Shown piece by piece: positions 36,245 to 45,438 of a stretch of 64,000 nt of DNA. Under the pieces are notes generated by a model that made no database searches, was not told where the DNA came from, and worked only from the letters and a program-made list of their open reading frames with translations. Each line of letters opens with the position of its first letter. Positions within the stretch are counted from its first letter, which is position 1. The translations under genes were made by a program, and so were the position numbers. The stretch spans positions 62,001 to 126,000 of the forward strand of contig NZ_SMKL01000004.1 of NCBI RefSeq assembly GCF_004348545.1, given 5' to 3'. Source of the stretch: Jiangella ureilytica (GTDB lineage: Bacteria; Actinomycetota; Actinomycetes; Jiangellales; Jiangellaceae).

Positions 36245-37486
36245 CTAACGCGACCGCAGGGCCGTCGCGAGGGCGCGGTGCAGGACCTCCTCGGCGGCCG
36301 GCGCGAAGGGCCCGGGCAGCCCGAACCAGTACGGCGCCTCGTCCGCCTCGTAGCCGCCCTGGGCCAGCTGCCGGGCCGTCACGAGGTAGCCGGTCATCCC
36401 GTTGGTGTAGCCGAGCGGCAGGGTCGCACCGCCGGACAGCACGGCGACCCGTCGCCCGTACGCGCTCACCGGCTCGCCGGACATCCCGAGCAGCTGCAGG
36501 TCCGCGGCCAGCCGCAGCGACGAGAGCACGACCGGCGCCGCCGTCCGGGCCCGCCCGGGGTCGGACAGCAGCAGCCGCGCCCATTCGCCGCGGACGCCGT
36601 CGTCGCCGGTCAGCTCCCGCAGCTCCGCAGCTGTAGGGGCAGGACGAAGCGGCAGGCCGACGGTGGTCCGCTCGGTCCGTAGTCCGGCCGGCCCGACGGC
36701 GATCCGGGTGCCGCCGAGCGCCCGGGTGACGGCGTCGGCCAGCTCGACGGCCGCGCTGTCGGCCGACCCCCACGACGGGAGCGGGTCGACGTCACCGCAG
36801 CAGCCCTGCGCGTAGACCGCCACCGCGCCCGGGTAGCGGCGTTCGAGCAGGTCCATGGCCACACCGGCGAAGTCGGGCGTGACCCGGTTGCCGCGGTGCA
36901 CCACGGGATGGCAGGCGTGGTGGACGAGCAGGGCGGCGACGCCGTCGGGCCCGGTGAGGCGGAGCACGGTGACGGCGGGGTCGACGGACGAACGGGGCAC
37001 CGTCGACGGCGATCGTGCGGCCCGGCGGTCGTGGCCGATGGCCGCGCGGTCGGCGAACCGGTCGATCGTCACCGGCCGCAGCGCCGCCAGCGCCCGCCCG
37101 ACGCCGTCGGCCGCCGCCGCGCAGACCTGGTCGACGTAGGCGTCGTCGACGGCGCCGATGGACGGGACGAACCGCCGCGACACCTGCGGCGCGGAGTGCG
37201 TGTGGGTGGCGTGCAGCAGCACGGCGCTCGCCGGCAGCCCGTACCGCCGGGTCAGCTCGGCCTGGACCCGCTCAGCGGTGTCGAAGCCCCACCAGAGCAG
37301 GTCGGCTGAGACGAGCACGGCCCGCTCGCCGCCGTCGTGGCCGCCGAACGCGAGCGTCCGCAACCGCAGCGGGGCCGCCGTGCCCGTGGCCGGACCCATC
37401 CCGGCGCGGGCGGCGAACCCGGCCAGCGGCACCGGCCGGCCGGGCGTGATGTCGGCGCGGTCGACCCCGAGCAGCAGGTTCGACAC
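36245..37486 (-). CDS. Neutral/alkaline ceramidase N-terminal-domain protein, nucleophile Ser absent
   Basis: 413 aa. GVDRADITPGRPVPLAGF at the start, LLHATHTHSAPQVSRRF and LLVHHACHPVV carry the zinc-binding histidines of the neutral ceramidase domain. True neutral ceramidases are about 650-750 aa and have a catalytic Ser in GDVSPN. Here the corresponding stretch is QGCCGDVDPLP, with Asp at that place, and the C-terminal Ig-like domain is missing. It is therefore probably a metal-dependent amidase or hydrolase of another substrate. Sits between the UDP-sugar dehydrogenase (11 bases) and the acetoacetyl-CoA synthetase (10 bases). No signal peptide is seen, so it is likely cytosolic. Confidence 0.8.
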   Translation of the reverse strand: MSNLLLGVDRADITPGRPVPLAGFAARAGMGPATGTAAPLRLRTLAFGGHDGGERAVLVSADLLWWGFDTAERVQAELTRRYGLPASAVLLHATHTHSAPQVSRRFVPSIGAVDDAYVDQVCAAAADGVGRALAALRPVTIDRFADRAAIGHDRRAARSPSTVPRSSVDPAVTVLRLTGPDGVAALLVHHACHPVVHRGNRVTPDFAGVAMDLLERRYPGAVAVYAQGCCGDVDPLPSWGSADSAAVELADAVTRALGGTRIAVGPAGLRTERTTVGLPLRPAPTAAELRELTGDDGVRGEWARLLLSDPGRARTAAPVVLSSLRLAADLQLLGMSGEPVSAYGRRVAVLSGGATLPLGYTNGMTGYLVTARQLAQGGYEADEAPYWFGLPGPFAPAAEEVLHRALATALRSR

Positions 37487-37497
37487 CGCCGATCAGC

Positions 37498-38799
37498 TCA
37501 CATGTGCTCGACGTTGTCGCCCAGCGGCGTGATGCCGCGGGTGTCGAAGACCCGCTTCGCGGTCTTGGCGATGAGGTGGCCGTCGTACTCGCTGTGCGGC
37601 TGCAGGACGACGGTGAGGTCGGCTGTGGCCAGCGCGGCCTCGAGGTCCGGGACGGAGTCGTGGACGGTGTCGTCGACCTTCCACGTGGGGACCTTGGGGT
37701 CGTGGAAGACGACGTTGGCGCCCAGCGAGGCCAGCCGCTTCGCCAGCGGGACGGCGGGCGACTCGCGCTGGTCGGCGATGTCGGGCTTGTAGGTGACGCC
37801 GAGCAGCAGCACCGTCGAGCCGTTGAGCGCCTTGCCGTCGACGTTGAGCAGGTTCTGGATGCGCTGCACCACGTACGCCGGCATGGTGGCGTTGATCTCT
37901 TGCGCCAGCTCGACGAACCGGAACGGGTAGCCGAGGCGGACCCGCACGTTGTGGCTCAGATAGTTGGGGTCGATGGGGATGCAGTGCCCGCCGACGCCGG
38001 GGCCGGGGTAGAACGCCTGGAACCCGAACGGCTTGGTCTTGGCCAGCCGGATGACGTCCCAGAGGTCGATGCCCAGCTCGTGGCAGAACCGCGCCATCTC
38101 GTTGACCAGCGCGATGTTGACGTGGCGGTAGGTGTTCTCGAGCAGCTTCGCCGTCTCGGCCTCGCGGGTGCCCTTGGCCTCGACGACGGTGTCGACGAAG
38201 CGGCGGTAGAACGTGGCGGCGCGCTCGGTGCACCCAGGCGTCTGCCCGCCGACGACCTTCGGGGTGTTGCGCATGCCGAACCTCGGGTTGCCCGGGTCGA
38301 TGCGCTCGGGCGAGAAGGCGAGGTGGAAGTCGCGGCCCGCGACCAGCCCGGAGGCCTCCTCGAGCATGGGCCGGACGACCTCGTCGGTGGTGCCGGGGTA
38401 GGTAGTCGACTCGAGCACCACCAGCATGCCGGCGGACAGGTGCCGCCCGACGGTGCCGACGGCGGCCTTGACGGCGCCGAGGTCGGGCCCGCCCTCGTCG
38501 GACAGCGGCGTCGGCACGCAGATGACGATGGTGGCCGCCTCGTCGAGGTCGGCCTCGTCGGCGCTGGCCCGGAAGCCCGCGGCCAGCATCTCGGCGATGT
38601 CGGCGTCGGAGAGGTCGTCGACGTGCGACCGCCCCCCGTTCAGACCCTCGACGACCCTGGTGCTGACGTCGAAGCCCATGACCCGGAGGCCGGAACGGCT
38701 CGCCTCCTGCGCCAGGGGCAGGCCCACGTACCCCAGTCCAACCACCGCGACATCTGTCGACACTGCTTCGTTCCCGTCCGTACGACTATGTGAGGCCAC
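37498..38799 (-). CDS. UDP-N-acetyl-sugar 6-dehydrogenase (second copy, WecC/VipA type)
   Basis: 433 aa. VAVVGLGYVGLPLAQEASRS binds NAD; TIVICVPTPLSDEGGPDL, VLESTTYPGTTDEVV, FSPERIDPGNPRF, ETAKLLENTYRHVNIALVNE and the catalytic Cys in GVGGHCIPIDPNYL define the UDP-HexNAc dehydrogenase family. The C-terminal LGVTYKPDIADQRESPA block is also present. GTG 38799 is used; a shorter start at GTG 38763 (VSTDVAVV) is possible and better matches family N-termini. It could make the uronic acid for a sugar other than the one served by the 19153 enzyme. Divergent from the APH-like gene over a 166-bp gap. Confidence 0.87.
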   Translation of the reverse strand: MASHSRTDGNEAVSTDVAVVGLGYVGLPLAQEASRSGLRVMGFDVSTRVVEGLNGGRSHVDDLSDADIAEMLAAGFRASADEADLDEAATIVICVPTPLSDEGGPDLGAVKAAVGTVGRHLSAGMLVVLESTTYPGTTDEVVRPMLEEASGLVAGRDFHLAFSPERIDPGNPRFGMRNTPKVVGGQTPGCTERAATFYRRFVDTVVEAKGTREAETAKLLENTYRHVNIALVNEMARFCHELGIDLWDVIRLAKTKPFGFQAFYPGPGVGGHCIPIDPNYLSHNVRVRLGYPFRFVELAQEINATMPAYVVQRIQNLLNVDGKALNGSTVLLLGVTYKPDIADQRESPAVPLAKRLASLGANVVFHDPKVPTWKVDDTVHDSVPDLEAALATADLTVVLQPHSEYDGHLIAKTAKRVFDTRGITPLGDNVEHM

Positions 38800-38893
38800 G
38801 TCGCGCTCGTGGCGCCTGACTGACGTGACCGCACGACTTTACAGCAGTCACGCGCGCGCACCCCCGGGGCGTTGCCCATGGGGCCCCGAAAAA

Positions 38894-38909
38894 ATGAGAA
38901 CACTCTCAT
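38894..38909. promoter_or_regulatory. 6-4-6 inverted repeat in the divergent gap
   Basis: ATGAGA-ACAC-TCTCAT follows a run of six A residues (38889-38894) about 23 bases upstream of the proposed -35 for the APH-like gene. It is a possible operator shared by the two divergent genes. Short, so chance is possible. Confidence 0.3.
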
Positions 38910-38931
38910 CCGGCTTGGGTGCCGAAGTGGG

Positions 38932-38960
38932 CTGAACAGTGCCATTGCGCTGGTTAGCAT
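38932..38960 (+). promoter_or_regulatory. Candidate promoter giving a leaderless transcript of the APH-like gene
   Basis: CTGAAC (38932-38937) and TAGCAT (38955-38960) are 17 bases apart. The -10 element ends only 5 bases before ATG 38966, and no ribosome site stands between. This spacing is what leaderless actinobacterial mRNAs show. Confidence 0.4.
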
Positions 38961-38965
38961 GTCTG

Positions 38966-40108
38966 ATGCCTGCCCACGCCCCTGACATCTCCGACGCGGT
39001 CCGGTCCCTCGAGTGGACGGCCGCGATCGAGCGGACGACGGGCAGCCTGCCGGCCGCGCGGGGTGTCGCCCGGCTGCGGCGGCGTGACTTCTTCCACGAC
39101 AACCGCATCGCGTTCTCGGCCCAGCTCGACACCGCGACGCCGTTCCCGTCCAGCGGCGTCTTCGTCGACCACCGCACGGGCGCTTCGGTGCTGGTGGCGG
39201 GCGGTCGGCCGACGGTGCGGTCGGTGGCCGCCGCCGACGTCGTCGTGGCCGGCGCCATGCGCACCGCCGAGCAGCTGCGGTTCCGGGCGTTCTACGTCAC
39301 CGAGGCACACCGGACCCTCGTCGTGCAGCAGCGCTTCGACCCCACCACACCGACCCCGCTGGCCGTCGGCAGCGAGCACCAGCGCGCGCTCGCCGGCCGC
39401 ACGCCGTTCGCCGTCCCCCAGGTGTTCGAGAGCGGGCTGGCCCGGCGCGGACTGGGAGCCGACGCCGTCGCCGACTGGCTGGTCGAGGAGGTGTTCGACG
39501 GCGCCCCCGTCGGCCCCGGCCAGGCCGCCGACGCCGTGCCGGAGCTGCTCGCCCTGCTGGGTGAGACCTGGGAGCGGCTCGGGCTGACGCACGAGCGGCT
39601 GAGCGGCGAGCAGCGGACCCGCGCGCTGACGGCGTTCTCCGGGCTGGCCGACGACCCGCCGCCGGGCATCTGGCCGGACGACCTCGACCCCCACCACACC
39701 TGGCTGCGGGTCCGCGCCCTGCTCGACGACGGCCGCCCGCTCACCGTCGGACTCAGCCACGGCGACCCCGGCCTCGGCAACGTGCTGCGGCTGGCCGACG
39801 GCCGCCTGGCGCTGGTCGACTGGGAGGACGCCGGCTACCGGCCGGTCGCCCACGACGTCGTCAAGGTGCTGATGTCCGCGCCCGACCCGCGAGGCCTGGC
39901 GCGGCTGCTCGAGGAGCCGGCCTCGCTGCGGCCCGCCCTGTCCGCGGCCGGCGCCGTCCCCTGGCGGCTGCAGGTGGCGGTCGCCCTGGTGCTGTTCCTC
40001 AGTGGCTGGCGCAACCGCTACTTCCGCGCGGTCAAGCGGGGCAGCGTCAAGGCCGCCAACCGGCGCATGCACCTCCTGCTCGGCATGCTCGACGACCTGC
40101 TGCCGTAG
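38966..40108 (+). CDS. Aminoglycoside-phosphotransferase-like kinase
   Basis: 380 aa. The kinase core has the Brenner motif LSHGDPGLGNVLRLADGR (HxDxxxxN) near residue 267 and the metal-binding LVDWEDAGYRPVAHDVVKVL near 292, as in the APH/choline-kinase superfamily. The N-terminal ~180 residues are a variable lobe without the usual glycine loop, and the last 60 residues are helical and basic. In polysaccharide loci such proteins may phosphorylate sugars, choline or lipids; nothing indicates drug resistance here. The start is ATG 38966. Phosphate acceptor unknown. Confidence 0.72.
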   Translation: MPAHAPDISDAVRSLEWTAAIERTTGSLPAARGVARLRRRDFFHDNRIAFSAQLDTATPFPSSGVFVDHRTGASVLVAGGRPTVRSVAAADVVVAGAMRTAEQLRFRAFYVTEAHRTLVVQQRFDPTTPTPLAVGSEHQRALAGRTPFAVPQVFESGLARRGLGADAVADWLVEEVFDGAPVGPGQAADAVPELLALLGETWERLGLTHERLSGEQRTRALTAFSGLADDPPPGIWPDDLDPHHTWLRVRALLDDGRPLTVGLSHGDPGLGNVLRLADGRLALVDWEDAGYRPVAHDVVKVLMSAPDPRGLARLLEEPASLRPALSAAGAVPWRLQVAVALVLFLSGWRNRYFRAVKRGSVKAANRRMHLLLGMLDDLLP

Positions 40109-40135
40109 CGGGTCCTGGGGGTGCGTGTGGTTGCG

Positions 40136-40677
40136 TGGGTTCCCCCGTCCCCCTGCTGCCCATTCTCTTAAGCCGCGCGGATGCCCTCAAGTCCGCGCGC
40201 TCTGTGCTTGGGCGCCGCCGTGGTGGGGGCGCTTGGACTTGACCGCACCCGCGTGGCCTAAGAACGGGCAGCTATCAGGGGGACGGGGGGAGTCTGGCGA
40301 CGGGTGCCGGGGTCCTGGCGGCCCTGCTGGTGTCCACGTGGTGGGATTTGGCGCGTTTCGCGGGGCCATCACGAGGTTCTCTGCCGCTTCACCAGGCCTG
40401 CATGCCTGGTGATGTGGCAGAAGGCCTGGTGATGTAGCGGATCGCCGATGATCATCGCGGTGCACAGTCCGGCGAACCGGGGCGAAACGGGCACGCGAAG
40501 CGGTGAGGCGTGCCCAGGGTCTCCCCGTCCCCCTGATAGCTGCCCGTTCTTGGGCCCCGGGTGCCCGGGTCAGGCCGAAGCCGCCCAACCACACGGTCAA
40601 GCAACCACAGCGGGCGCCGGCTTGAGGCGGGTGGCCGGGGTCAAGAGAATGGGCAGCAAGGGGGACGGGGAGCCCAC
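40136..40677. repeat. Two inverted, diverged copies of a ~155-bp palindrome-ended element
   Basis: Element A spans ~40136-40291 and element B ~40521-40677. Each is bounded by inverted arms of ~33 bases built on CCCCGTCCCCCT...GCTGCCC.TTCT. The outer arms (40136-40171 and 40641-40677) match each other with about four differences. The inner arms (40255-40291 and 40521-40556) match each other even better, including the word CAGCTATCAGGGGGACGGGG in one arm. B is therefore an inverted copy of A, separated by ~230 bases. The central spacer contains another stem, CACCAGGC...GCCTGGTG (40400-40421), and a direct repeat GCCTGGTGATGT. No protein-coding signal is convincing in 40109-40702, which lies between converging genes. 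Confidence 0.85.
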
Positions 40678-40702
40678 CTCAAACCCCCAGCCAACTGGGG
40701 TG

Positions 40703-42835
40703 TCATGGGGGCGGCGGGAGCTTCGCCCGGGTCGCGCAGGCGACGGTGAAGCCCGACCCGGTGCTCACGTGGTACCGCCATTGCGACGTGCCGTCGCCGC
40801 AGCGGCCGCGGTAGCCGAGGTCGGCGTCGCCGTCGCCGTCGACGTCGCCGACGGAGATGCCGTAGTGAGCCGTCGAGCCGTCGGCGGCGGGCCAGAAGTC
40901 GCCGCCCCAGCGGCGCACCTCGAAGCCGTGCTCGCCGCTGACGTGTACCCGGAAGCAGGGCTCGCCGGCGCTGCCGCAGGCGCCGCGGTAGCCGACGTCG
41001 TCGCGGCCGTCGCCGGTGAAGTCGCCCACCAGCAGGCCGTACACGCCGGTCTCGACGGTCCAGGCGACGTCGTCGCCCCAGGACCGGGCCTGGAAGGACT
41101 CGCCGTCGCTGCCCAGCATGCGCCAGCAACGCTCGTTCGCCGCCCCGCAGGCGCCGCGGTAGAGGAGGTCGTCGCGGGCGTCGCCGTCGAAGTCGCCGAC
41201 CTGGACGCCCAGGCCGGCCGTCTCGCCGGTGGTGGGCCCGAGCCGCGCCCACGGCCGCGGCGGTGCGAACCCGTCGTCGCCGCCCAGGGCCACGCGCCAG
41301 CAGTGCGTCTCACCCGAGCAGGACCCGGCCCAGGCGAGGTCGTCGTGGCCGTCGCCGTCGAAGTCGCCGACCTGGACGCCGAAACGGGCCGCCAGTTGTG
41401 CGCCGCCGAGCCGGGCCGGCCAGCGGACGATCTCGACGCCGGTGCCGGCGCTGAGGTGCGCCCGCCAGTACGGGTCGCGGTCCGGCTCGCGGACCAGCTG
41501 GACGAAGTCCTCGCGGTCGTCGCCGTCGAAGTCGCCGCGGTGCAGCCCGGCGAACGGCTCCTCCCACTCCGGCGTGGTGCCGCAGTCGCTGGTGCGGACG
41601 GCGCCCAGGTGCGAGACGAGCGCGGCGCGGGCGTTGCCCTGGACGCAGAACTCCGCGGCCCGGCTGGTCGAGACCGAGATCATGCCGCCGTCGACGAACG
41701 CGTTGCCGCCGATGAAGACGTCGCTCTCGGGCGCACCCTGCTGCCCGGCGATCTCGGCGTCGCGCCAGTACGTCACGCCGCAGTAGTGCCGGCAGCCGGT
41801 GGCGCCGCGCATGTCGATGGTGTTGTCGCGCATGGAGACGCGGCGGAACACCTCGGGCATGACCTGGCTGGCGTAGACGTAGCTGTAGATGCCCGACGAG
41901 CGCATGCGGTTGCCGACGACGTAGGTGTCGTGCTGGTTGCGCAGCTTCATCGAGCCGCCGGCGGGCGAGGCGTCCCAGCCGTCGGCGCGGTTGCCGACGA
42001 TCGCCAGCCGCCGGCTGCCCCACGCGTAGAGGCCGTGGTCCTGGCAGAACCTGCAGCCGGCCGGCGCCCCGATGCCGGGCGTGCGCCGCCAGACGTTGCC
42101 GTCGACCACCACATCGTCGTTGCCCTGCCCGGTCGCGAGATCGTGCCCCCACAGGTTGACGGCGGTGCGGAACCAGCCGTCGGGCACCTCGGGGTCGAGG
42201 TCGCGGGTGGTGCCGAACCACGAGTCCTTGACGACGGTGAGCCGGGTGGTGTCGGCGACGACGCCGCGGCCGGGGTGCGCGCTGTCGCGGAGGAACTCGC
42301 AGCCGTCGACGGTGACCCCGCTGGTGTGGCGGAGCAGCACGTAGGCGACGCCCCACTCGCTGGACGTCTGCCCGTTGCGGAACGTGCAGTCGCGCAGCGT
42401 GACGTCGGAGACCGAGCTGTAGTCGTCGGAGCCGGTCAGCTCGAGGCGGACGTCGTCGAACTCCAGCCCGCTGATCGTGACGTCGCGCAGCAGGTCCTGG
42501 GCGATGGTGACGCCGTCGGCGCTCGTGCTGCGCAGGACGACCCGGGCGCCGTCGGCGGCGGTGTAGTTCCGGCGCGAGGCGAACCGGATGGGCCGGTCGA
42601 GCCGGTAGACGCCGGCCGGGAAGACGACGGTCTGGCCCGGCTCGGAGGCGTCGATGGCGGACTGGACGGCGGACGCGTGACTGCGGCCCGAGGCGAGGAA
42701 CGCCCCGACGTCGACGGTCTTGGGCTCGGGCCGCCGGACGTCGCGCGCGCCGTCGGGACCGCCGGTGAGCCAGCCGGGCGCCCAGCCGGAGAGGAGGGTC
42801 GCCGCCAGCACCGTCGCCAGAATGACGCCGATCAC
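40703..42835 (-). CDS. Exported right-handed beta-helix protein with FG-GAP repeats
   Basis: About 710 aa from GTG 42835 (VIGVILATVLAATLLSG, a signal peptide or anchor); TTG 42844 is an alternative, with GAGGAA at 42849-42854 upstream of both. After a pectate-lyase-like entry (SAVQSAIDASEPGQTVVFPAGVYRLDRPI) come many short beta-helix coils such as VTISGLEFDDVRLEL, VTLRDCTFRNGQ and VTVDGCEFLRDSA, so a parallel beta-helix binding or cleaving a polysaccharide is likely. Five FG-GAP-like repeats end the chain (GDFDGDDREDFVQL, GDFDGDGHDDLAW, GDFDGDARDDLLYRG, GDFTGDGRDDVGYRG, GDVDGDGDADLGYRG), each paired with cysteines, unlike the repeats at 23.4-27.6 kb. The catalytic site cannot be identified, so lyase activity is unproven. 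Confidence 0.8.
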   Translation of the reverse strand: MIGVILATVLAATLLSGWAPGWLTGGPDGARDVRRPEPKTVDVGAFLASGRSHASAVQSAIDASEPGQTVVFPAGVYRLDRPIRFASRRNYTAADGARVVLRSTSADGVTIAQDLLRDVTISGLEFDDVRLELTGSDDYSSVSDVTLRDCTFRNGQTSSEWGVAYVLLRHTSGVTVDGCEFLRDSAHPGRGVVADTTRLTVVKDSWFGTTRDLDPEVPDGWFRTAVNLWGHDLATGQGNDDVVVDGNVWRRTPGIGAPAGCRFCQDHGLYAWGSRRLAIVGNRADGWDASPAGGSMKLRNQHDTYVVGNRMRSSGIYSYVYASQVMPEVFRRVSMRDNTIDMRGATGCRHYCGVTYWRDAEIAGQQGAPESDVFIGGNAFVDGGMISVSTSRAAEFCVQGNARAALVSHLGAVRTSDCGTTPEWEEPFAGLHRGDFDGDDREDFVQLVREPDRDPYWRAHLSAGTGVEIVRWPARLGGAQLAARFGVQVGDFDGDGHDDLAWAGSCSGETHCWRVALGGDDGFAPPRPWARLGPTTGETAGLGVQVGDFDGDARDDLLYRGACGAANERCWRMLGSDGESFQARSWGDDVAWTVETGVYGLLVGDFTGDGRDDVGYRGACGSAGEPCFRVHVSGEHGFEVRRWGGDFWPAADGSTAHYGISVGDVDGDGDADLGYRGRCGDGTSQWRYHVSTGSGFTVACATRAKLPPPP

Positions 42836-42919
42836 TCGCCGCAAATTCCTCGAATCCTCCCGAATCGACCACAGGGGTTGGCTTCGAGTATGCCCTGGGC
42901 CGGCGGCGCCCAACCGCGG

Positions 42920-43894
42920 TCAGCGGTTCTTCAGCGGCTCCCACCACGACCGCTGGTCGCGGTACCAGGCGACGGTCTGGGCCAGCCCGGCGGCGAAGTC
43001 CTGCCGCGGCACGTAGCCCAGCTCGGCCCGGATCTTGCCGTCGTCGACGGAGTAGCGCCGGTCGTGTGCGAGCCGGTCCTCGACGTGGTCGACGCGGTCC
43101 CAGCCGGCGCCGCAGGCCTCGAGCAGCAGGCCGGTGAGCTCCTTGTTCGTCAGCTCGCGGCCGCCGCCGATGTTGTAGACCTGGCCGGACCGCCCGCCCG
43201 CGCGGACCAGCTCGATGCCCTGGCAGTGGTCGTCGACGTGCAGCCAGTCGCGCACGTTGAGGCCGTCGCCGTAGAGCGGCACGTTGAGGCCGTCGAGCAG
43301 GTTGGTGACGAACAGCGGGATGACCTTCTCGGGGTACTGGTAGGGCCCGTAGTTGTTCGAGCAGCGCGTGACCGACACCGGCACGCCGTGGGTGCGGTGG
43401 TAGGCCAGCGCGACGAGGTCGCTGCCGGCCTTGCTGGCGCTGTAGGGGGAGTTCGGCTCGAGGATGTGGTCCTCGGTCCACGACCCGGACTCGATGGAGC
43501 CGTACACCTCGTCGGTCGACACGTGCACGAACCGCTCGACGCCGTGGCGCCGGGCCGCGTCGAGCAGCGTCTGCGTGCCCACGACGTTGGTCTGCACGAA
43601 CGCCGCCGCGCCCTGGATGGAGCGGTCGACATGGCTCTCGGCGGCGAAGTGGACCACCTGGTCGGCGGCGGCCAGCAGCTCGTCGACCAGACCGGTGTCG
43701 AGGATGTCGCCCTTGACGAAGGAGAACCGGGGGTGGTCGGCGACCGGCTCGAGGTTGGCGGGGTTGCCGGCGTAGGTCAGTTTGTCGAGGACCACGACCT
43801 CGGCGCCGTCGAGCCCGGGGTAGGCCCCCGACAGTGCCTGGCGGACGTAGTGCGAGCCGATGAACCCGGCTCCGCCCGTGACCAACAACCGCAT
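42920..43894 (-). CDS. rmlB: dTDP-glucose 4,6-dehydratase
   Basis: 324 aa. ATG 43894 has GGGAGGGG before it and starts MRLLVTGGAGFIGSHYVRQ, the NAD-binding loop. HFAAESHVDRSI, VSTDEVYGSI with the catalytic Thr/Asp/Glu triplet, YSASKAGSDLVALAYHRTH (Tyr-x3-Lys) and CSNNYGPYQYPEKVIPLF are all diagnostic for RmlB. It removes water from dTDP-glucose to give dTDP-4-keto-6-deoxyglucose, the second step to dTDP-L-rhamnose. Divergent from rmlA over 48 bases, so the two share a regulatory region. Confidence 0.96.
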   Translation of the reverse strand: MRLLVTGGAGFIGSHYVRQALSGAYPGLDGAEVVVLDKLTYAGNPANLEPVADHPRFSFVKGDILDTGLVDELLAAADQVVHFAAESHVDRSIQGAAAFVQTNVVGTQTLLDAARRHGVERFVHVSTDEVYGSIESGSWTEDHILEPNSPYSASKAGSDLVALAYHRTHGVPVSVTRCSNNYGPYQYPEKVIPLFVTNLLDGLNVPLYGDGLNVRDWLHVDDHCQGIELVRAGGRSGQVYNIGGGRELTNKELTGLLLEACGAGWDRVDHVEDRLAHDRRYSVDDGKIRAELGYVPRQDFAAGLAQTVAWYRDQRSWWEPLKNR

Positions 43895-43942
43895 CTCGAC
43901 CCCTCCCGGAACCATCACTACCGCGGGCTATCGTAGGCGCTC

Positions 43943-44815
43943 ATGCGAGGAATCATCCTGGCGGGCGGCTCGGGAACCAGGCTGCATCCGCTCACCGTGG
44001 CGGTCAGCAAGCAGATGCTCCCGGTCTTCGACAAGCCCATGATCTACTACCCGCTGACCACGCTCATGCTGGCCGGCATAACCGAGATCCTCGTCATCAC
44101 CACGCCGCGCGACGAGGAGCAGTTCCGGTCGCTGCTCGGCGACGGCTCCGACCTGGGCATCTCCATCTCCTACGCCCAGCAGCCGAGCCCCGAAGGCCTG
44201 GCCCAGGCGTTCGTCATCGGCGCCGACTTCGTGGGCTCCGAGCACGTCGCGCTGGTGCTGGGCGACAACATCTTCTACGGCGCCGGCCTCGGCACCCAGC
44301 TGCGCAAGTACAGCGAGGTCGACGGAGGGCTGGTTTTCGCCTACCACGTCGCCGACCCCTCGGCCTACGGCGTCGTCGAGTTCGACGACGCCGGCCGGGC
44401 CGTCAGCATGGAGGAGAAGCCGGCCGTCCCGCGCAGCAACTTCGCCGTCCCCGGCCTCTACTTCTACGACAGCGACGTCGTCGAGATCGCCCGCGACCTG
44501 AAGCCGTCGCCCCGCGGCGAGCTCGAGATCACCGACGTCAACCGCACCTACCTCGAGCGCGGCGCCTTGCACGTCGAGGTGCTGCCCCGCGGCACCGCCT
44601 GGCTCGACACCGGCACGTTCGACAACCTGCTGGCCGCCGGCGAGTACGTCCGCGTCATCGAGGCACGGCAGGGCCAGAAGATCGGCTGCCCCGAGGAGGT
44701 GGCCTGGCGCATGGGCTTCATCGACGACGACCAGCTGCGGGCCAGCGGCGAGCGGCTGCGCAAGTCCGGCTACGGCGACTACCTCTTCGGCCTGCTCGAC
44801 GGGGCGCCCGCGTGA
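43943..44815 (+). CDS. rmlA: Glucose-1-phosphate thymidylyltransferase
   Basis: 290 aa, the standard length of RmlA. The N-terminus [20 protein letters not shown] is the nucleotide-binding signature with the catalytic Arg. [71 protein letters not shown] and [16 protein letters not shown] follow in the normal order. It makes dTDP-glucose from dTTP and glucose-1-phosphate and is normally feedback-inhibited by dTDP-rhamnose. The stop overlaps the GTG of rmlC. Confidence 0.97.
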
Positions 44816-45438
44816 ACCCGAAGATCGAGCCGCTGTCCGTCGGCGACGCCTTCGCGGTGACGCCGCAGCAGTTCGGCGACCCCCGCGGCGTCTTCCTCGA
44901 GTCCTTCCGCGGCGACCTGCTGGCCCCGCACCTGGGGCACCGGCCCGACATCGTGCAGACCAACCTGTCCGTCTCGGCGGCCGGCGTGCTGCGCGGCCTG
45001 CACTTCGCCGACGTCCCGCCCAGCCAGGCCAAGTACGTCACCTGCATCTCCGGCGCGGTGCTCGACGTCGTGGCCGACATCAGGGTCGGGTCGCCGACGT
45101 TCGGCCAGTGGGACGCCGTCCTGCTCGACGACGTGGACCGGCGGGCCGTGTACGTGGCCGAGGGGCTGGGGCACGCGTTCCTGTCACTGGCCGACGGGTC
45201 CGCCGTCATGTACCTGTGCACGGCGCCGTACGCGCCCGGCCGCGAGCACGGCGTCGACCCGCTGGACCCGGAGCTGGGCATCGACTGGCCCACCACCGAC
45301 CGCGACGGCCGGCCGATCACGCTGTCGCTGTCGGACAAGGACCGGGCGGCGCCGTCGCTGGCCGCCGCGCGCGAGTCCGGCCTGCTGCCGGACTATGCCG
45401 CGACGCGCGAGTTCTACGCGTCGCTCGCGGGGTCCTAG
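44812..45438 (+). CDS. rmlC: dTDP-4-dehydrorhamnose 3,5-epimerase
   Basis: 208 aa; GTG 44812 overlaps the rmlA stop. Cupin fold with [33 protein letters not shown] (catalytic His in RGLH), [20 protein letters not shown] and [19 protein letters not shown], all as in RmlC. It epimerises C3 and C5 of dTDP-4-keto-6-deoxyglucose. The last codon and stop (TAG 45436-45438) lie inside the left arm of the palindrome at 45433-45523, so the terminal residues may have been set by that element. Confidence 0.94.

Follow-up and report, generated by a model that had tools for sequence, protein, structure and literature searches.

REPs and BIMEs are described, in the available excerpts of two papers, as dispersed extragenic palindromes of alternating orientation and mosaic composition that lie mostly behind coding regions, between tandem or convergent genes, and that host insertions of the IS256 and IS5 families (PMC3733652, PMC1525189). 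REPINs have a pair of conserved arms in inverted order on either side of a spacer and form a hairpin with compensatory changes (excerpt of PMC3116915). We searched the literature on Jiangella repeats and palindromes, on actinobacterial REPs and RAYT and on extragenic palindromes of Streptomyces (the papers covered include PMC2817692 and PMC5292007), and found no description of the family reported here. RepRanger (PMC12306157) leaves Jiangella unmentioned in its main text, and the available part of the J. gansuensis genome paper gives 0 CRISPR repeats; we found no other repeat families in that part.

We analyzed a 64 000-nt stretch of the draft genome of Jiangella ureilytica (contig NZ_SMKL01000004.1, positions 62 001 to 126 000; hereafter, the window). 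An original prediction, made from the letters alone, had placed in it four arms of alternating direction, which define two mutually inverted units with related interiors between converging genes. This layout was borne out. The arm pattern, CCCCGTCCCCCT-N0-6-GCTGCCC, has four exact matches in the window, at the predicted places and alternating in direction. A repeat finder recovered the nested inverted repeats (outer, 40135-40244/40568-40677, 70% identity; inner, 40224-40302/40509-40587, 75% identity), the two units being inverted around a spacer of ~224 bases, with interiors that are related yet diverged. Open reading frames and codon usage confirmed the convergent neighbors (Table 1). The prediction had missed that the spacer, too, is a hairpin module and belongs to a separate repeat family. 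We refer to the long hairpin units (~130-155 bp) as H and to the spacer module as M; the architecture is H-M-H, with two H units in mirror order around M. The two arms of H are not equivalent, which the prediction had missed as well: in nearly all of the 16 aligned full copies from the own genome, the inner arm has an extra GATA and a G in place of A. The surroundings of the element (36245-45438 of the window) hold a run of genes that, from their open reading frames, we take to resemble nucleotide-sugar and polysaccharide genes.

Table 1. Features of the element and its two neighbors; positions are those of the window.
Feature	Position	Strand	Evidence
Left neighbor, APH-family phosphotransferase-like gene, stop facing the element	38939..40108	+	ORF; codon usage; Pfam PF01636, E 5e-17
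Left outer frame, G-rich variable edge, stop codon to arm 1	40115..40142	+	Semi-conserved in 16-copy alignment; flank listing
Left H unit, one long hairpin	40138..40292	+	Alignment; folding of related units; covariation
Arm 1, outer arm of left H	40143..40161	+	Exact pattern match
Arm 2, inner arm of left H, extra GATA	40266..40288	-	Exact pattern match
M module (spacer), hairpin core 40367-40434	40293..40480	+	Repeat finder; alignment; related modules standing alone in other family genera
Small hairpin GGGCACGC...GCGTGCCC between M and right H	40489..40515	+	Sequence; conserved in 16-copy alignment
Right H unit, inverted relative to left H	40517..40676	-	Alignment; repeat finder
Arm 3, inner arm of right H	40523..40545	+	Exact pattern match
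Arm 4, outer arm of right H	40651..40670	-	Exact pattern match
Right outer frame, CCCACCTCAAACCCC type	40677..40702	-	Conserved in most of 16 aligned copies; resembles edges that flank another module in G001 slots
Right neighbor, beta-helix/pectate-lyase-like protein with FG-GAP repeats, stop facing the element (beta-helix Pfam matches fall below their cut-offs)	40703..42913	-	ORF; codon usage; Pfam FG-GAP_3, E 6e-15

Like REPs and BIMEs, the Jiangella element is high-copy, extragenic, palindromic, alternating and mosaic, lies behind genes and carries IS5 and IS256 insertions. It differs from them in several ways: its hairpin units measure ~130 bp versus 20-40 bp in REPs, an unpaired GTAG or CGTC tag is missing from the hairpin foot (the arm does contain CGTC, but paired within the stem), Y1/RAYT was not found in Jiangella, and other module families are present at some orthologous loci. 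H shares with REPINs the two arms inverted around a spacer and a hairpin with compensatory changes; however, its arms are longer and have a fixed asymmetry, two units are mirrored around M, and, again, no RAYT was found. Bacterial MITEs are likewise non-coding and multicopy with inverted ends, but in Jiangella neither a parent insertion sequence (275 stretches) nor a target duplication was recognized. By analogy, the element could also be likened to bidirectional terminators, having GC-rich long hairpins ~30 nt behind stops, one per converging gene, although the Jiangella hairpins lack a U-tract and are part of a high-copy repeat family. They are also far longer than usual terminators. In view of its unit length, the failure to find RAYT and the alternative module families seen at orthologous loci, we set the element apart from REPs, BIMEs and REPINs; we regard it as their kin and classify it neither as a REPIN nor as a MITE.

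The exact arm pattern matched 132 times in the own genome (G000), 66 times per strand, versus 0 matches for the reversed pattern used as a control; the arm repeat is therefore not due to chance. The 542-base element gave 108 matches in this genome, which group into 40 assembly places. Since only 40 of 155 candidates were scored, further copies may be missing from this count, and since 21 of the 40 places touch a contig end, some of them are probably two halves of one copy. In the complete 7.16 Mb chromosome of another member of the genus (G001), the matches also group into 40 places (40 candidates scored). Other copies thus exist both in this genome and in its relatives; their absence would have refuted the original prediction. 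Some part of the element was matched in all 11 other genomes of the genus (in G003 and G006 at least, mainly M) and in five of 10 genomes from other genera of the family, one of these five (G017, L024) being a chance match inside a gene; no matches were obtained in 18 genomes of the same class from outside the family. Among the matches listed, loci with at least two arms in named genomes all belong to Jiangella (rhizosphaerae, anatolica, muralis, aurantiaca). No match to the element was found in plasmids and phages by blastn, and none to the arm pattern in viral contigs. Single arms occur outside Jiangella (Streptomyces, Azospirillum and others) among the matches listed.

Genes were called by a codon-usage caller trained on the window, used in place of a standard gene finder. 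Elements of G000 and G001 are intergenic, none of them being overlapped by a called gene for more than 60 bases. Nineteen G000 elements have both neighbors (11 convergent, 7 tandem, 1 divergent), and 21 more lie at contig ends. The 44 G001 entries comprise 22 convergent, 20 tandem and 2 divergent ones; they take in the overlapping L202 and L203 (two elements doubled) as well as elements split by insertion sequences, and one entry shorter than 120 bp was dropped. We found that convergent gene pairs are overrepresented at elements both in G001 (22/44 versus 19/226 of other gene pairs, Fisher test, P-value 8e–10) and in G000 (11/19 versus 13/110, Fisher test, P-value 3e–5), with an odds ratio of about 10. 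Adjacent H units face each other as mirror images in 87 of 88 distinct pairs. For lone H units, duplicate loci were removed and units with <400 bases on either side were left out. The outer arm of the distinct lone units points toward a gene 3′ end in 45 of 58 cases, at a median distance of 32 nt, with 34 of the 45 within 60 nt; none of the 39 inner sides that face a gene 3′ end lies within 60 nt. H is directional relative to the gene, its outer arm facing the gene end, and H-M-H consequently provides each of two converging genes with its own H.

The 243 distinct H units analyzed fold as hairpins with a mean MFE of –94 kcal/mol, mostly 128-146 bp long, in which the lower stems, one bulge and one mismatch are conserved and the upper stems vary. 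The hairpins of the window have no U-tract, a point against the transcript-end reading given below. Covariation was assessed on 36 units: 63 of the 243 have a length of 131-132, thinning at 93% identity left 37 of these, and one overlapping variant was omitted. In this alignment 97.5% of cells are paired, versus 92.1% after shuffling (0/500) and 28-44% with the structure slid, and 10 of 35 pairs stay paired through changes on both sides. The compensatory changes whose lack would likewise have refuted the original prediction are thus present in H stems, a pattern that could also arise from copying of whole stem blocks or from palindrome correction. A mosaic copy with a mismatched stem was observed as well (L032).

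Elements sit in intergenic slots a short way downstream of stop codons, and most of these slots are found in more than one species. At the window locus, which we compared across 12 Jiangella genomes, the element is complete in G000 and split in G001 by insertions of the IS5 and Mutator/IS256 families. M and the right H are kept in G007 and G008, a single H in G010 and only an M-like piece in G006. G002 has a 651-base gap with decayed pieces resembling H and another module (J, see below), G009 a 228-base gap with another palindrome, and G011 a gap of ~290 bases with no element match. The element is absent from G003, G004 and G005, where the neighboring genes overlap or are separated by no more than ~20 bases; the window slot itself has therefore been gained or lost and is dispensable.

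Moreover, the palindromic modules found in one slot can differ from species to species. Both flanks are available for 19 G000 elements, of which 16 have a collinear locus in G001. Each of these 16 G001 loci holds palindromic modules: H or M at 13, and at the other three (the loci of L036, L044 and L052) T alone, a different palindrome bounded by G-rich edges of similar type. T is common in G001 and G009 and almost missing from G000. Nine loci were compared in G002, six with H or M (L027, L033, L034, L040, L044, L046) and three with neither (L036, L048, L052). In several G001 slots, H and M are separated by an additional hairpin, module J (H-J-M-H). J and T are thus further palindromic families that share the slots (L243:2160-2400, L235, L233 and L241 in G001). 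More short palindromes recur in slots across species, namely GGGAGGGACTTTTCC..., AGTTACTACCGC... and GTTGATCATGGAGA... (L198 and L239 in G001; L242 and L236 in G002; L208 in G009).

The flanks of the remaining three of the 19 G000 copies (L028, L030, L032) map to two different G001 slots each. We considered these joins as proof of recombination between slots and dropped them: they were not found in G009 (flanks apart in 3/3 pairs found) or in G011 and G004 (two clear pairs each). Misassembly is a fair explanation, as the G000 draft is broken at these repeats; alternatively, the rearrangement may be specific to this strain.

M copies are homogenized within a genome. Similarity between M copies is 0.90 within G000, 0.82 within G001 and 0.84 within G002 (the last pooled with J. 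rhizosphaerae loci throughout this comparison). When G000 is compared with G001, copies at orthologous loci score 0.67 (n = 11) and those at other loci 0.68 (n = 888); for G000 and G002 the respective values are 0.67 (n = 4) and 0.66 (n = 663). The matched flanks at G000-G001 orthologous loci are mostly 85-94% identical. Homogenization of H is weak, with similarities of 0.78-0.80 within genomes and 0.70-0.77 between them in most comparisons; orthologous and other pairs of G000 and G001 both score 0.77. Orthologous H copies of G001 and G002 are more alike than random ones (0.82, n = 4, versus 0.75), which speaks against complete homogenization of H. Unlike orthologous copies would also result from repeated re-insertion into a preferred site.

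We tentatively favor the view that the element is a composite, BIME-like H-M-H extragenic palindromic repeat, which resides in recombination-homogenized slots behind stop codons and whose hairpins are candidate bidirectional transcript ends. The pattern of similarities suggests that homologous recombination or gene conversion acts between copies, through which slots exchange modules and become homogenized, and such exchange would run without a dedicated transposase. Judging by their sequence and placement, the long hairpins probably form bidirectional transcript ends for the two converging genes, and might do so either as terminators or as a block to read-through and 3′ decay. Should the hairpins indeed end transcripts, sets of gene ends would have been refitted between sister species. 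A more far-reaching version, in which post-stop slots with G-rich frames are a genome-wide arrangement loaded with unrelated palindromic families (H, M, J, T and others) that are exchanged without a transposase, gene ends being refitted between species in the process, appears doubtful to us. The 1988 review of Higgins and colleagues reportedly raised the question whether REP-type repeats evolve by gene conversion. Jiangella is rich in composite palindromes, our searches of the genus revealed no RAYT, and its orthologous slots and within-genome homogenization can be read side by side; this makes the old question directly testable in soil actinobacteria.

Among the suggestions of the original prediction, a REP-like family agrees with a repeat that is dispersed, extragenic and palindromic, extends across the genus and shows compensatory changes. 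A mobile element, the other suggestion of this kind, corresponds to the main rival of our reading: a non-autonomous transposon of the MITE or REPIN kind, whose H and M would be copied by a transposase that escaped recognition and that acts on the imperfect hairpin. We consider this possible. Copies would then persist only behind genes, either through purging elsewhere or through a preference of the enzyme for terminator hairpins. Such a transposon would account for the high copy number, for arms conserved together with their mismatch and bulge, for lone H and lone M copies and for the element-free orthologous site in G003, G004 and G005 (these sites are too diverged to be paired with filled ones), and REPINs offer a close analogy (excerpt of PMC3116915). 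However, our searches for a mover point the other way. Y1_Tnp (RAYT) was found in none of 22 genomes, 12 of them Jiangella, the same search being positive in 5 of 14 controls; this result weighs against REPIN membership more than against a REP-like way of working. We also looked for a parent insertion sequence bounded by these arms: among 709 fuzzy arms in 275 stretches, none of the 24 neighboring pairs 0.7-5 kb apart had the plus-then-minus order of transposon ends. Such transposases as were recognized between arms had inserted into the element, and not all genes between arms were identified. No target duplication was recognized at the element edges, which are G-rich variable frames, and all 16 collinear loci are already filled in G001. 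Since most tested loci are present in more than one species, replacement of modules within slots that were already there accounts for more than new insertions do.

Two other readings were considered. The element might act at the DNA level, as a cruciform or as a site bound by gyrase or nucleoid proteins that absorbs supercoils where converging polymerases meet. Enrichment between convergent genes and stem mismatches free of RNA-strand bias are in line with this, and gyrase, IHF and Pol I bind enterobacterial REPs (excerpt of PMC1525189). Nevertheless, a distance of ~30 nt from stop codons fits transcript ends better, and elements are found at tandem and a few divergent sites too. We regard a DNA-level role as improbable. 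Even less probable, and in our estimate very unlikely, is a structured RNA acting as such, whether a regulatory element or an ncRNA, which was the last of the original suggestions. The H fold is very stable and conserved, shows covariation and has a sense orientation behind genes, all of which an RNA would explain. Yet isolated stem mismatches are about equally often G-U and A-C (47 versus 56 distinct contexts, P-value 0.43, a comparison of limited power; 132 versus 152 in all), so the palindrome is kept without a sign of RNA-strand selection. No Rfam family reached its gathering score in 39900-40900 of the window, the only match being mir-614 with 22 bits versus a cut-off of 90, and other modules take the place of H and M at some orthologous loci. 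Structured RNA as the selected form is thus unsupported. Our preferred reading remains that of a recombining, BIME-like repeat with hairpins as candidate transcript ends.

Insertion sequences are found at the slots as well. G001 has 11 near-identical copies of two such elements, one of the IS5 family and one of the IS256/Mutator family, and seven of the 11 are located within or next to palindromic slots (IS5, 4/6; IS256, 3/5; L275, L277, L283, L285, L287, L291). The IS5-family element inserts at CTAG, and module J contains CTAG. These insertions resemble REP-targeting insertion sequences. Two further G001 slots (L258, L260) contain IS5-like genes together with another gene of ~1.2 kb.

In other genera of the family M occurs alone, with a CACCAGGC-GCCTGGTGA core and often with TGATCA-like ends. 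The exact M core was found in 15 of 393 Actinomycetes genomes, eight in the family and seven outside it with one or two matches each, and the reversed core used as a control in 3 of 393. The exact core is a blunt test, as it missed 8 of the 12 Jiangella genomes, including some that have M (G001), and owing to this insensitivity the element search is the better evidence for a limited range. One genome from another genus of the family (G014; 1.7 Mb, 75% complete) contains 68 exact M cores. Six of its M copies were viewed (L269, L270, L273, L274) and are very alike; two lie in convergent gaps, two in tandem gaps, one in a divergent gap and one at a contig end. Extra outer half-units in tandem, ~102 bp apart, were observed beyond the element edge at L028, L033, L034 and L049, and in G000 at C125:38089-38312.
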